A stretch of DNA of 64,000 nucleotides, taken from positions 6,324,001-6,388,000 of the forward strand of contig QCXZ01000053.1 in assembly GCA_025024175.1 (NCBI GenBank), written 5' to 3'. The DNA is from Rhyzopertha dominica (taxonomy: Eukaryota; Arthropoda; Insecta; Coleoptera; Bostrichidae). Below, piece after piece: positions 19,582 to 45,177 of this stretch. Every line of letters starts with the position of its first letter. Positions within the stretch are counted from its first letter, which is position 1. Both the position numbers and the translations under genes were made by a program. The notes beneath the pieces were generated by a model, which was given only the letters and a program-made list of their open reading frames with translations, was not told where the DNA came from and ran no database searches.

Positions 19582-19804
19582 TTAATTTTTTCTTAAAAGT
19601 AAGAATTTAGGATGGCAATCCCATCTGTCAGCATTACACTGACATGATGACAAAGCCACCTAGCTGCCAAAACCAGTTCTATGCCGTGTTGTCTACACTA
19701 AACCTAAACTGCACTGATGAGCTGTAATGACAGCGAAATAGTACTATCTGCAGTTGGTTGAGGTGTAGACAGCACAGCATAGACATGCATTTTAATTTTT
19801 TCTT
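19582..19804 (+). mobile_element. Short insertion with 13-bp target duplication carrying a hammerhead
   Basis: TTAATTTTTTCTT occurs at 19582-19594 and again at 19792-19804, bracketing 197 bases that the paralogous repeat copy near 28000 lacks. The duplication length, variable rather than a fixed transposase footprint, suits target-primed reverse transcription. The insert has no open frame and no recognised poly-A or pol III boxes. It contains an imperfect palindrome whose arms (19678-19698 and 19763-19783) pair as an extended stem I of a hammerhead ribozyme. Short non-coding retroelements with hammerheads are known in animals (schistosome Sm-alpha, retrozymes, insect satellites). Assignment to any of these is inference. 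Confidence 0.75.
19707..19755 (+). ncRNA. Hammerhead ribozyme, type I
   Basis: All invariant nucleotides of a self-cleaving hammerhead are present and spaced correctly. The order is: stem I 5' strand AACTGCA (19707-19713); core CTGATGA (19714-19720); stem II GCTGT/ACAGC (19721-19725 and 19730-19734) with loop AATG; core GAA (19735-19737). Next is a short stem III ATAG/CTAT (19738-19741 and 19744-19747), then C at 19748, the cleavage position. Stem I closes with TGCAGTT (19749-19755), a perfect 7-bp match, and extends outward through AACC/GGTT and CTACAC/GTGTAG. Stem III is very short, as in other animal minimal hammerheads that cleave best as dimers. Activity has not been tested. Confidence 0.88.
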
Positions 19805-20009: not shown

Positions 20010-20575
20010 ACAATGGGCCCAAGAACCTGTGAATTCGATTAAACCACAATGGGGTAATGTTCTCTTCACGGATGAGTCTAGGTTTGGGTTTTGGCCAGAT
20101 AACGAAGAGTAAGGGTTTGGCGTTGAAAGGGTGAATTAGAGAGGATCAGGCCCATATGACAGAGGAGGATCTGTCATGGTTTGGGGCGGTATCATTCTCC
20201 ACCATAAAACAGACCTCATTTGCATCGACAGAATAATGACTCAGGATCAGGACCTGTTGTTCAACCACTCACATATGCTGCCGGAGCAGATTGGTCAGAG
20301 AGCAACCAACTGGTTGGCTGATGAACAGATTCGTGTTCTTCTATGGCCTCCTCAATCGCCAGACAAGAATCCTATTGAGCATGTGTGGGACATGCTTCAA
20401 AGAAGGTTAACACCATTTATGCCGAATATCCATAACCGTCCTGATTTTACAAATCTCTTGGGGGAGCAATGAAATTTGGTTCCACAAGCAGCCATTGATC
20501 AACGCATTTTGGGCATGCCTAGGAGATGTCAGGCCATTATTAAATCTCGATGTGGTAACACAGCGTACTAGGCTA
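20010..20575 (+). pseudogene. Tc1-like transposase relic with missing second Asp block
   Basis: The plus strand reads VLFTDESRFGFWPDNEE (first catalytic Asp) near 20060-20110. A stop follows, then GPYDRGGSVMVWGGIILHHKTD (quoted in parts: SVMVWGGI, HHKTDLI) near 20150-20220. Further on it reads RVLLWPPQSPDKNPIEHVWDML (RVLLWPPQSPD, NPIEHVWDML) near 20330-20400, then a C-terminal tail to about 20575. The normal QDNAxPH segment with the second Asp is missing: an internal deletion replaces it with FNHSHMLPEQIG. The protein would be inactive even without the stops. It is a different Tc1 lineage from the relic at 240-1130. Confidence 0.88.
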
Positions 20576-27804: not shown

Positions 27805-28175
27805 TTTTACGAGCGCAAAGCTCCGCCCCGCAAAGCATTAAGGTGAACTCCCTCAGTGCTAAAATTATTCAACTTTGTGCAATAAAAATTCATTATTTTT
27901 GTTGCGATAAAGAAAAGAAAAATGTTTTGCGTGTCAAAATTAAATTTTCTCTGGTGCTCTCGTCCTATTTTTTTTTGTTTTAATCTTTATTTTTCCTCTT
28001 GCATCTTTTTATTTTTTTTCCGCAAAAGTCAGTTTGAATTTCGAAAAAGTACGATGACAACTCCCGAGAGAAATAATTTAAGCGCCCAGATAAAAAATCT
28101 GAAATCGATATGATCAAAAATATGGATTTTTTCCTGCATAAACTATGTAGAGTAGTACGTATAAACAGCTTTAAG
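27805..28175 (+). repeat. Dispersed repeat family A, copy 2 (empty site)
   Basis: This aligns with 19397-19985 from ACGAGCGCAAAGCTCCGCCC to ACGTATAAACAGC. Where copy 1 has the hammerhead insertion, this copy reads TTTAATCTTTATTTTTCCTC straight on to TTTTTATT, so it shows the unoccupied target. It carries the same short frame (MTTPERNNLSAQIKNLKSI). Confidence 0.75.
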
Positions 28176-29447: not shown

Positions 29448-29762
29448 ATGCATGTCACTACAGTGATGAGCTGTAACGACAGCGAAATAGACTGTCTACA
29501 CCCAGCACCGGAGATGGAAGGACCTCTGAAGAAGCTTGCCACTCGTGCTAACGAAACGTTAGGAAGCAATTTCAACCGACGACGGACTTTAGACCCGAAT
29601 CAGAACAACAGCTCATCACCTGGCCGCGAAAGCCTTAACCAATTCGTCAATAAAGTCATCTCCAGCACCGAACTTGAAAACTTTGACATCAATGAGATGC
29701 TAGAGAACACTCCTTCGCGACGAGGCTATTCGTATAACGTAGAAGTTCATAGGATGTCATGA
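29448..29762 (+). CDS. Unrecognised 104-residue frame starting in a hammerhead relic
   Basis: The frame opens with MHVTTVMSCNDSEIDCLHP and continues with a hydrophilic, Asn/Ser/Arg-rich sequence (LKKLATRANETLGSN; SSPGRESLNQFVNKV) ending EVHRMS. I do not recognise the family. The first ~20 codons lie on the decayed hammerhead at 29463-29496, so the start may be accidental. The remainder has balanced, codon-like composition and no low-complexity runs, which could mean an exon or a transposon protein fragment. No splice or promoter evidence could be established. Confidence 0.25.
   Translation: MHVTTVMSCNDSEIDCLHPAPEMEGPLKKLATRANETLGSNFNRRRTLDPNQNNSSSPGRESLNQFVNKVISSTELENFDINEMLENTPSRRGYSYNVEVHRMS
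29463..29496 (+). ncRNA. Hammerhead ribozyme relic
   Basis: GTGATGA, GCTGT, AACG, ACAGC, GAAATAGACTGTC reproduces stem II, the GAAA core and a minimal stem III with C at 29496. The first core base is G instead of C (GTGATGA for CTGATGA), and no complementary stem I strand is found. It is therefore a homologous but presumably inactive copy of the 19.7-kb motif; 28 bases are shared with only two differences. Confidence 0.65.
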
Positions 29763-34346: not shown

Positions 34347-34800
34347 CGTTTTGACCCTTTTTGTTGGGCCTTCTTCAGGCGTATTGTTTTTATTTTTTGT
34401 CTGAAAGTCATTGAGTATACATATTTAAAATACATTTGAAATACTTTGTACCTTGCACTAATAATAATAGGATAATCAGGTAGAGCTATTAAAGGTAGAG
34501 TTAAAGAACATGTTGCAAGTATAAATTCAAACAAAAGCACAACAGGTTTTGCTGACAATTGCATAAAAAATAATCATTATTTGGATGAAAGCGACGTTAA
34601 AGTTTTACATTGCGAAAGGAAAGATAAAAAACTGAACCTTTTAGAGCTTTTGGAAATTAAAAAAGCTCAGCATCAGCAAAAACATTTGGCAAATTCCTAC
34701 GTCCACGTGTGGTCGAAACGATCATCTGAGTTATCTGATAAATCAAGTGAGACAAAGCACATACGTTCAATCAGCTTGTTCCCAAGCTACCTAATTGAAA
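34347..34800 (+). pseudogene. Penelope-like element 3' fragment (GIY-YIG C-terminal side)
   Basis: From about 34495 the plus strand reads RVKEHVASINSNKS, TGFADNCIKNNHYLD, VKVLHCERKDKKLNLLELLEIKKA. This is the end of a GIY-YIG endonuclease module as in Penelope-like elements (R..EH...fA.H....H......L......L.LlE..EI). The catalytic GIY and YIG part lies upstream and is missing. A minus-strand box at 34347-34378 (CTGAAGA, stem GGCCC/GGGTC, AAAACG) precedes it. The tail 34710-34800 (GGTCGAAACG...CAAGCTACCTAATT) recurs at 40465-40555. Confidence 0.6.
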
Positions 34801-35234
34801 GTTAATTGATTATAAAATTAAATTAATACATACATACATTAATACATAATACATGTTGACAACTTGTTACGGTTCAAATTTTCGGAAATAAATAAAAGCC
34901 TTCTTATACTGAAAATAAGTATTTCATCAATTGGTGATCATATGCCATCTGTGTGTCTAAGTATGCATGTTAATCTTCTGAATGAGAGATTTCTTTGTTC
35001 AGCGATGTTTTCTGTAGATAGCTTAGTTTTTGTGGAAGTACGTTTTATCGAGAGAAAAACAGATTGTTCCTGGAAGGTGAATGGCGCTGTCGAGGTGTAG
35101 AGTGAAGTTTTCTGGGAAATATCTTCACAACCCAACAGGGGAAACACTATCCTTAGCAGTATTGTTTGGATAATCGATAGGGTTTGCTGGTGCAATATTT
35201 TCGACTGTTCTACTTAGAACTCAGAGATCTGACT

Positions 35235-39125: not shown

Positions 39126-39950
39126 TGCTGGCAAGTTTGAGCTATATAACAGCCTTGGCAAGATGTACAATTAATTTCGTAAATCACATCAGTGTTATTT
39201 ACTAATGGCGTGTTATCTTTTAATTTTGTATACAGCGAACCTACTAACTTCGTACTTTTTTTGTAATATTTGTTATAATTTTTTGATAAGTTTATTAACT
39301 TTTGTGTCGGATTATTGTAATATGGTAACACTGCAAATTTTTTGGTTCACTTTTTATTGTAATTTATTTGTTACGTTAATTTCCTCACTTTGCACTCTCG
39401 AATTGTTACTATAATTGTTACTATAAAGTAATTTAGTTATTAGTTTTTTTGGGTATGCATTTTTATANGTGAGAATTCCAAAAATTTTAAATTTTTGTAC
39501 CTAAAGTCNTTATGTANTAGNGTTTCAATTCTATTTTTCATTTGAACTACAAAATTTAATTTAACTTTGTTTGAATGGTTTGACTCATAATGCAGGTATC
39601 TGCCTGTAGATGTAGGTTTCCTGTACCAATCTAATTTTATAGTGTTGTTTTGCCTCTATAAACTCTTGTATGTAAAAAAGAAACGCATCTGTCACTTTCT
39701 TTCTCTACAGTAAACTTAATGTTTGTAACAGAATCATTAAACACTTGTATTATCTCTTCAATACCATCAGGTGGAACAATTAGTATTAAATCGTCGACAA
39801 ATTCTTTTATATAATTTATATAAAACGACAGTTTTAGTATTACTTCTTCAAGGAGTGTGTTCATTACATACTGAGCCACGATTGGACATAATTTTGACCC
39901 CATAGCACATCCAAGTACTTGCATGTAGGAACTACCCAAATAGCTAAAAT
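39110..39950 (-). pseudogene. Penelope-like element relic (RT palm and GIY-YIG)
   Basis: At 39939-39640 the minus strand reads LGCAMGSKLCPIVAQYVMN, YIKEFVDDLILIVPPDGIEE, VTNIKFTVEKESDRCVSFL: the RT palm with FVDD and the KFT-E block. At 39331-39110 it reads KLVGSLYTKLKD, TDVIYEINCTSCQGCYIAQTCQQL. This is the GIY-YIG endonuclease start, in which the YIG-type glycine position reads YIA. Between them (39636-39340) the frame is lost. The order RT then GIY-YIG is diagnostic of Penelope-like elements. The fragment joins the Mutator-type relic directly. Confidence 0.85.
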
Positions 39951-40671
39951 AACTGTTTTGTTAATGACTAACTGACAAACTGGAATAGAATCATAAACTT
40001 TGCGGAGTAAACACATCAAATAGGTCTAAAGAACCTATAAGTCATGTTTCTCCAAAATCACTGACAATTCTCCGGTGATTTTATCAGAGTTGAACCCCAA
40101 CAACGAAATCTCAAGACGTACACTGCCCGCCATACCACACCACTACGAAAAATGTTTTCCCATCCGCAAGAACTAATAGCCCAGGACACTAGATACAACG
40201 CGGTCGAAACAAAAACAGGTAATGGCCCAGCGAGGCGGGCAAGAAGCATTTCTGTTATACAAGACAAATGAGAATCTCGTTAAAAGCTTACTACGATTAT
40301 ACAGCCAGGAGGAAAGCAGGCGAGTGCGTCTGCATTAGTACCAAAAGGGATATCTACTTTAAAATGGAGTATTTCATTAAGGGAAATTCATCCTAATTTC
40401 TAAGATATATACAATGTATAACTACAAAGCGTATAACGCTGTTATCTCTTTGACAATGACCGTATTTGGTCGAAACGATCCTCATAGTTATCTAATAAAT
40501 AAGTGAGACAAAGCACATACGTTCAATCAGCTTGTTTTCAAGCTACCTAATTAATTCAGCAGGTAAACCACATGGTTAGATTTTTTGATGCATATTCCCC
40601 AATATCTTATTTTTTCTATAATAACTTTTTGATTGTGTTTATACCTATTAATGACAATTTTCACGTAAGCT
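39951..40671. other. No recognised gene; shared PLE-flank repeat at 40450-40555
   Basis: No coding similarity was recognised. 40450-40477 reads TTGACAATGACC, loop, GGTCGAAACG. Together with the following ~80 bases (GAGACAAAGCACATACGTTC, then CAAGCTACCTAATT) it matches 34710-34800. Confidence 0.5.
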
Positions 40672-43244: not shown

Positions 43245-45177
43245 AACAGATGGGGTTTTATCAAGATATACAAAGAAAATGCCATCGTGCCAGATAATGT
43301 AAAAACAACATTAGCATTAGGTACTAAATTTAATTTTCCAACTAACATTAAAGATATACGCTTAGGCAAACTTATAGCTGATATTGAAAATAACTTATTA
43401 TTTATAACAGAACAAAAAAGAATTTATATAGAGCAAAACTAACTAGTATAATCACAGGACTTGTGCATAAAAATAAAAATACCAAACATCAACTTGCTAG
43501 TTTATACATTGCAACAAAAAGATACTTTAAACAGAATCAAAATTTAATTTCATTAAATAGTGACAAGGGATCGGTAACGGTGGTAATCGACAGACATCAA
43601 TACCAAGAAAACTTGAACTCAATTGTAGCGGATACGAACTCTTTTGTCATGTTAAGGGGAGATCCAACCAGAACCATACAAACCAAAGCTAACGATTACA
43701 TAAGTAAACTAGGAAAAGTCAAATTTCTTACTAAAGAACAAGCCAAATTATACAAGATTTATAATGCTATAACTCCTCGAATTTATGGCAATCCGAAGCT
43801 TCACAAACCTGGTTTACCATTGAGACCTGTAGTATAAAGTATACAAAGTACGTCAAAAATATCAAAAATACTCTGTGATATATTAACAAACGCATATAAA
43901 ACTGATAATGGGTATTACATAAAAGATTCCTTTCAATTTGCTGAATTCATAAATAATATCAGAGAACCACCAGATCATGAACTAATATCATTAGATGCCG
44001 TAAATCTTTTTGGTAATATAACTGAACCTCTTGTGATTAAAGTGTTGAATCAACAGTGGAACACAATTGACCCATATTTTAAATGTTTTACATTAAGGCT
44101 AAAGAAAAAAAATAACTTTTCATTGATATGATAAAATTCACAGTAGACAATAACTATTTCGCGTATGAAGATAAATTCTTTAAACAAACCACTGGTTGTG
44201 CAAATATATAATGGATAATTTATTAGATACTTGTATACCTATATTATGCTACAATATAACATTTATAAAAAAGTACTTTGATGATTTAATAATGTTAGTA
44301 CCAACAAGGGCATTAGAACAAATAGAAAATGTGTTTAACTCATATGATCAATATATAAAGTTTACTATAGAACTAGAGGTAGATTGTGGAGTACCATTTT
44401 TAGATACTAAATCATACGTAAAAATGATAAATTAACACTAGATTGGTACCGAAAACCAACCTCGTCAGGAAGGTATATTAATTACTTATCAGATCATTCA
44501 ACACATATTAAAATTAACTTTGTAAAGCAGATGAAATTAAAAATTTTATAAAAAATTTACTATTACAAAATTTATATCCAAAAACGTTAATAAATAAAAT
44601 CTTATATTCTACTACTTATTTATCAACAAATGTAACACAAACACAACAAACTGTAAATAGCAATGTTATGCATGGTAACGTGGAGCAGAGTATAAATCCT
44701 GATCCCATGGTTGATAATAACACACTAATATTAGAACACAAAAGGTATGGATCACTAGCAAACATTTCTGGATTAACAACAAAATTAATTAAGACGTTTA
44801 AAAATGAAAAAAATAAAAATTGCACTTAAGAATAAAAAGAACGGTTTAACCTTACTAACAACATTAAAATCAAAAATACCCATAAAATTTCAATCGGATT
44901 TATATATTGTTTGGAATGTGAGGATTGTGAAGGCAAGTACATATGACAGACATCACGATGGATAGTTAATAGACTGGCCCTCCATAAAAGTGACATAAAT
45001 AAACAAAGGGATAGATGCTCACTTACAGAGCACATAGTCAGCAATGGTCATCATATTAACAGGGATAATGTCAAAATTTTAGATAAAGAAAGTAATGCTA
45101 ACAAAAGATTAATTTTAGAAATGGTTCACATAAATCAAAATTCAAATACAATAAATAAAAAGTCAGATACTCAATAA
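43245..45177 (+). pseudogene. Penelope-like element, most complete relic (RT and GIY-YIG)
   Basis: In order on the plus strand: an N-terminal ALGTKFNFPTNIKD block (43310-43360); LNSDKGSVTVVIDRHQYQENL; RIYGNPKLHKPGLPLRPVV (43780-43835); a TAA where Ser is normal; SKISKILCDIL; DHELISLDAVNLFGNITE (motif A). Next are FFKQTTGCAN, FIKKYFDDLIMLVP (YFDD in place of YVDD, 44260-44300), KFTIELEVDCGVPFLDT and DWYRKPTSSGRYINYLSDHS. The GIY-YIG part is GFIYCLECEDCEGKYI followed by TGA in place of the Gly codon and then QTSR (44900-44960). The C-terminal RCSLTEHIVSNGHHIN and a natural stop near 45177 follow. Only a few lesions separate it from an open frame, so it is the youngest PLE here, but it is inactive as read. 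Confidence 0.9.

Follow-up and report, generated by a model that had tools for sequence, protein, structure and literature searches.

A hammerhead-bearing insert in Rhyzopertha dominica is probably a head-to-head copy of a non-autonomous retrozyme, with an architecture pointing to two-site, two-strand priming

How did a short segment of DNA with a hammerhead ribozyme motif come to be inserted into a beetle genome, and is it an element in its own right or part of something larger? The locus that raises this question lies in a 64,000-nucleotide stretch of the Rhyzopertha dominica assembly (here called the window; positions refer to it unless a locus or the element itself is named), an insect host, as the original prediction had supposed. 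The segment is exactly 197 bp long and is bounded on either side by the 13-bp sequence TTAATTTTTTCTT, the left copy (19582-19594) and the right copy (19792-19804) being identical, as had been predicted. The claim that the segment is absent from a paralogous repeat near 28.0 kb was likewise borne out by sequence comparison: the repeat at 27881-28174 (27.88-28.17 kb, forward strand) is 84% and 87% identical in two ungapped flanks, contains no insert and represents a natural empty site, located at ~27.99 kb. A transposase piece at 20140-20472 (Pfam DDE_3, E=6e-7, above cut-off) is found beside the repeat that hosts the insertion.

The invariant hammerhead bases were found on the forward strand where they had been foreseen. 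Pattern search located CTGATGA at 19714-19720 and GAAA at 19735-19738, and the position relative to this core places the predicted self-cleavage site after C17 (19748), between 19748 and 19749. The three stems are also present: stem II comprises 5 bp, stem III 3 bp within the self-complementary 10-mer ATAGTACTAT (19738-19747, forward strand), which could pair with a second copy to give a dimeric stem III, and stem I is extended. The long outer arm announced for stem I, with 21 bases, is there and has 20 positions with one mismatch and one G-U pair (by eye). The complete motif with extended stem I covers 19679-19782 of the forward strand, as judged from the Rfam HH9 model, the fold and the pair table. 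The window contains a single match to the core pattern, and none of 100 shuffles contained any. The predicted folding energy of the 197-nt insert is -75.8 kcal/mol, whereas 200 shuffled versions average -45.1 (z -7.3). The Rfam test that had been proposed gave a divided answer: there were no matches at the gathering threshold across the whole 64-kb window, and a search of a 311-base stretch at a relaxed threshold returned Hammerhead_HH9 at 19698-19768 with 29.5 bits (E=1.2e-5; gathering score 52).

The insert is not the free-standing, monomeric carrier of ~197 bp that had been suggested. Sequence comparison shows it to be a rearranged piece of a retrozyme with a 352-bp unit, which is found in tandem arrays as well. 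A similarity search of the 479-Mb R. dominica assembly returned 60 matches (the best 40 of 749 candidates were scored), and at many loci the right part of the window insert was preceded by the left part in reverse; the tandem arrays had a period of 351-352 bp and reached up to ~3 units. One 352-nt unit of locus L022, numbered from the base after GACATGCATTTTAA, served as reference. In this numbering (u), the hammerhead core starts at u271, the predicted cut follows u305 (u305/306) and the extended motif of the window corresponds to u236-339. Two sites of the unit are central to what follows. They flank the hammerhead hairpin ~155 nt apart, site B on its 5' side and site A directly on its 3' side, 47 nt downstream of the predicted cut. 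In the window, the left 72 bp of the insert are the same element in inverted orientation. This B arm (19595-19667, or 19596-19667 by segmentation; minus strand, antisense) runs from u197 down to u126 with 97% identity to the unit and has its outer end at site B, and the A arm (19668-19791; plus strand, direct) runs from u225 up to u1 with 99% identity and has its outer end at site A. Segmentation extends the A arm to 19796, the element's final TTAA being at the same time the first bases of the right duplication. The window copy is thus a short form with a 72-nt B arm and a 124-129-nt A arm.

Assembly-wide, a 30-nt core pattern had 3,109 matches with at most two mismatches and its reversed-pattern control had none, in keeping with the many copies that had been expected; no exact match to the retrozyme core was found in viral contigs. 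The unit has a GC content of 0.438, a longest stop-free stretch of 67 codons (in the doubled unit) and no reverse transcriptase or endonuclease ORF, and its predicted circular fold scores -140.1 versus a mean of -94.4 for 100 shuffles. Hammerhead pairs are mostly invariant in a 70-row alignment. The pair u281/288 is GC in 81 copies, AT in 4 and AG in 1, the pair u252/323 is AT in 66, GC in 7, AC in 4 and GT in 2, and u299/300 reads TA in 69 and AT in 17 (17 of 86 copies), the stem III palindrome being kept by both. Covariation is thin and lends modest support to a folded, possibly dimeric, ribozyme. Conservation of the core was dropped as a sign of selection because half of the loci had been chosen by the core.

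To describe how copies are built, we used a positional sample, the first 41 core-list loci of contig C1 (40 loci and L034), and a second set of 40 loci (L001-L040) from the similarity search with the window insert. Viterbi segmentation against the circular 352-nt unit resolved 90 copies at 80 loci; in 40 shuffled loci, the same procedure gave two blocks of at least 15 nt. Among the 90 copies, 61 are head-to-head, with outer ends A/B in 58, A/other in two, other/other in one and A/A or B/B in none, short-armed B/B inserts being under-sampled since the C1 sample required an exact hammerhead core and the remaining loci were chosen by similarity to the window, and such inserts would escape both. 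The direct copies end at A in 22 cases, at B in three and elsewhere in three, and one copy is cut off. In the C1 sample (43 copies), the head-to-head class comprises 27 A/B and one A/other with no A/A or B/B, and the direct class 12 copies ending at A and two at B, with one cut off; about one third of all copies are accordingly not head-to-head (14/43 in the C1 sample). Classes were assigned automatically, L012 counting as direct A through one 15-nt end block although it is head-to-head by eye, and both members of the duplicated regions L007/L009 and L031/L032 entered the end-class, junction and duplication tallies. In the counts of outer ends, variant agreement and stops at the cut, each of these pairs was reduced to one.

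The outer ends are fixed and the inner junctions are not. The 148 outer 3' ends fall into an A class (80), a B class (61) and seven others; 58 of the 80 A-class ends are at u352 or u1, and 59 of the 61 B-class ends are within u191-204. Inner junctions, by comparison, were distinct in 59 of the 62 listed, among which L034 appears twice, and 39/62 have microhomology of at least 2 nt versus 17% in random joins. Some copies are longer than one unit and some dispersed copies are shorter than one. Genome-wide, the B region had 3,576 matches (25-mer, at most two mismatches), of which ~1,207 continue past B (38-mer, at most two mismatches), and the A region 6,273 (19-mer, at most one mismatch), of which ~1,391 continue past A (31-mer, at most two mismatches); there is no sign of a B surplus in this comparison, which is rough, as lengths and tolerances differ. 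Among 100 listed of the 6,273 A sites, five divergent pairs in C1, near 9.35, 11.11, 11.71, 11.85 and 12.71 Mb, are possible A/A inserts. Retrozyme cores on opposite strands and less than 3 kb apart were divergent in 10 cases and convergent in none (100 listed of 3,109). One retrozyme insert with matching outer flanks (L025:4459-6778) has 1,725 bp of unrelated sequence between its arms, which represents either captured DNA or a later insertion.

The retrotransposition-like mode of insertion that had been claimed for the window copy holds for the family. Target duplications of at least 8 bp were present in 55 of 89 copies versus 2.6% with swapped flanks, and duplications of at least 10 bp in 48 of 89 versus 0.2%. 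The commonest lengths were 13 bp (20/89) and 14 bp (12/89), and none was found in 9/89. An A-rich motif lies outside both edges of the duplication in the set of 40 head-to-head copies whose duplication measures 11 bp or more (L007 and L009 both counted), position -2 being A in 82% and 78% and position -1 mostly C or A. Given this like motif at both edges, one and the same activity seems to nick the two target strands, at staggered positions that leave 3' extensions. The targets themselves are mixed A+T-rich sites and not (AT)n.

The arms of a copy resemble each other more than they resemble other copies. At 15 shared-variant sites, the two arms of a copy agree in 227/237 comparisons and successive laps in 248/253, versus 73% between different copies. 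The C1 sample alone gave 90/93 for arms and 87/89 for laps versus 76% between copies, and a looser list of 45 sites gave 869/908 and 792/812 versus 87%. Variants are mixed between arms or laps in some copies (L020, L021, L033, L065, L066 and L079). Since the variants are shared between the arms, a single RNA was probably the template for both strands. Blocks stopping at the predicted cut (u303-309) were found in 0/80 A arms and 1/61 B arms. A cleaved linear monomer would stop there and the A arms do not, which suggests that the template ran continuously across the cut, either as a circle or as an uncleaved multimer. Most of the data would be accounted for equally well by circles and by uncleaved multimeric transcripts.

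Given our findings on ends, arms and targets, we consider it probable that a non-autonomous hammerhead retrozyme gave rise to the window insert and moves by two-site, two-strand target-primed reverse transcription, perhaps with an enzyme of Penelope type. An endonuclease would nick both target strands ~13 bp apart, and each 3' end would prime reverse transcription of the same retrozyme RNA, starting at site A on one strand and at site B on the other. Each cDNA may exceed one unit in length, and the two would be joined head-to-head via microhomology. With less assurance, we infer that the template was a circle, formed when the hammerhead RNA cuts and ligates itself, because laps share variants and A arms never end at the predicted cut. 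Least sure is the Penelope-like nature of the enzyme, which is proposed because Penelope-like copies in this genome obey a parallel two-site rule. A fuller version is tentative, and we lean somewhat away from it: one circular RNA would be copied from both strands of a single staggered break, the two dedicated start sites being held by stem I, and head-to-head rolling-circle arrays would result, the hairpin having a double role in circle formation and in docking a pair of Penelope-type enzymes. If this is true, the inserts would record in the genome the way in which animal retrozymes move, and twin priming would acquire a programmed form. Start sites paired at fixed points, a nick motif common to both strands and arms that point to a single template offer a concrete means of recognising a partner family and of rebuilding the reaction in vitro.

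Ordinary twin priming also makes inverted copies. In this process, a LINE enzyme starts at the 3' end of the RNA and the second strand sometimes primes internally, which leaves a 5' inversion; LINE inserts of this kind have an inverted 5' part, microhomology and a duplication length similar to those of the retrozyme, and their second sites are scattered along the RNA. We think it unlikely, though worth serious consideration, that LINE-mediated twin priming made the retrozyme copies. The duplications of 13-15 bp, the inverted 5' parts and the short junction microhomology all fit, and LINEs are left open as carriers in PMC7229834. The second sites, however, are not scattered but fixed, B ends lying within u191-204 in 59/61 and only 7/148 outer ends falling elsewhere; the majority of copies are affected, and some are longer than one unit. 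In addition, neither a poly(A) nor a simple-repeat tail follows CATTTTAA, the end of the unit, and a common motif marks both nick sites.

The inverted arm could instead arise by fold-back, a cDNA or antisense RNA folding on itself and priming its own extension, as was proposed in 2013 for rotifer Penelope elements, in which head-to-head inversions are common (PMC3846280). Under such self-priming, the inner turn should be fixed and the far end variable, whereas the retrozyme has fixed outer ends and distinct junctions in 59/62, and we regard it as very unlikely here. For Penelope-like inverted ends, too, our data favour priming by both target strands over self-priming.

It is just as improbable, in our judgement, that a monomeric hammerhead SINE of ~197 bp spreads as such. 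There are several copies of ~190-215 bp with similar junctions: L002, L003, L004 and L008 are 94-97% identical to the window copy, L008 has exactly its junction, and 1-2 bases separate L002-L004 from it. All four, however, had been chosen for their likeness to the window, and each is flanked by a target duplication of its own. The window's junction is absent from the positional C1 sample, in which both lengths and junctions vary widely. Spread by satellite-type recombination or an assembly artefact, with no retrotransposition, would account for the tandem arrays but is scarcely credible in the face of duplications far above the control, a natural empty site and dispersed copies of less than one unit.

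On the features compared, the element would be a metazoan non-LTR retrozyme. By description only, the element also resembles the schistosome Sm-alpha hammerhead SINE, a short hammerhead-bearing interspersed repeat. Like the metazoan non-LTR retrozymes of Cervera and de la Pena (2020; PMC7229834), it has a type I hammerhead (here below the Rfam gathering score), a tandem unit (352 bp here, 150-450 bp there), target duplications (mostly 13-14 bp here, >4 bp there), a low GC content (<50%), no long ORF and a self-paired RNA. Small animal repeats with type I hammerheads were described there as non-LTR retrozymes in insects already, so the possible new family of the original prediction is not new as an insect hammerhead repeat; what is new is the insertion architecture. 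In a feature that we did not find in that account, the copies in R. dominica are mostly head-to-head from two fixed start sites, and it is this architecture that points to a two-site, two-strand mechanism. In the open-access literature, which takes in few subscription journals and no supplements, we found no description of head-to-head retrozyme inserts, and no open-access paper was found that brings R. dominica and the hammerhead together. LINEs or Penelope-like elements have been named as candidate mobilisers of animal retrozymes (PMC7229834), and animal retrozyme repeats are described as having no conserved motif that helps to deduce the autonomous partner (PMC7761336).

Several likenesses link the retrozyme to Penelope-like elements as described in PMC11167929 and PMC3846280, namely type I hammerheads, head-to-head inserts, arrays that are wholly or partly tandem, and copying that starts at two internal sites and involves both strands of the target. 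In rotifer Penelope elements, a tail is found on one of the two inverted ends (PMC3846280), which is paralleled by the A/B ends in 58/61 head-to-head retrozyme copies. In vitro, a purified Penelope protein from a lizard cut each of the two strands and extended it, with starts at two sites inside the RNA, and its insertion did not depend on ribozyme activity (PMC11167929). Its start sites are the same on both strands (PMC11167929), whereas retrozyme inserts use one of each. Penelope-like elements also differ in that the retrozyme is devoid of their reverse transcriptase and (canonical) GIY-YIG endonuclease and its sites are ~155 nt apart and not ~34-40.

The window itself holds fragments that we take to be Penelope-like from a motif and from their arrangement (34476-34805, 39637-39960 and 43394-44131). 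Four window pieces and the frame of locus L083 were scanned against Pfam and NCBIfam; one of the five, 39640-39960, matched Pfam RVT_1 below the cut-off (E=4.6e-5), and the other four, including the supposed GIY-YIG piece, had no match in either library. A homologue search with the reverse-transcriptase piece 43394-43834 found none, as did a search for solved structures with 39640-39960. At L082 and L081, the pieces succeed one another as parts of one protein, and the end structure of the copies also counted towards the Penelope-like label, as did the naming of Penelope among the main retrotransposon groups of R. dominica (PMC8956072). From the protein libraries, support for the label is partial and weak.

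With one window reverse-transcriptase piece, 150 places were scored of 1,835 candidates in this genome. Among the 150 listed, 28 lie in frames of >800 codons (by eye), and matches on opposite strands less than 3.5 kb apart were divergent in 16 cases and convergent in none. Five head-to-head Penelope-like inserts from four families (L084-L093) each have one short end and another ~34-40 nt longer (by eye), and all five sit in long (AT)n runs. This suggests that the four families prefer a microsatellite target, unlike the retrozyme with its mixed sites. As candidates for the retrozyme's partner, these families are unsupported, because sites, spacing and targets differ from those of the retrozyme; in the neighbourhoods of retrozyme copies, a search for a partner element found fragments only. 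The pLTRs of Penelope-like elements in L083 (109-146), L088 and L089 contain minimal hammerhead-like motifs of the form CTGATGA...GAAAGCT, the one in L083, read by eye, lying ~110-140 nt upstream of the frame's first ATG, and a comparison of the L083 pLTR with Rfam gave no hammerhead match.

A further trace of the retrozyme may be present in the window. The 34-nt stretch at 29457-29490 (within 29449-29505) matches the retrozyme hammerhead core at 91%, with the first core base changed from C to G, and lies where a frame of 104 codons begins (29448-29762, stop included), for which a search for homologous proteins (29448-29759) found none. Next to this match are 14 bases that, by eye, equal the antisense of the element's A end, and the sequence is possibly a relic caught in the start of a gene.
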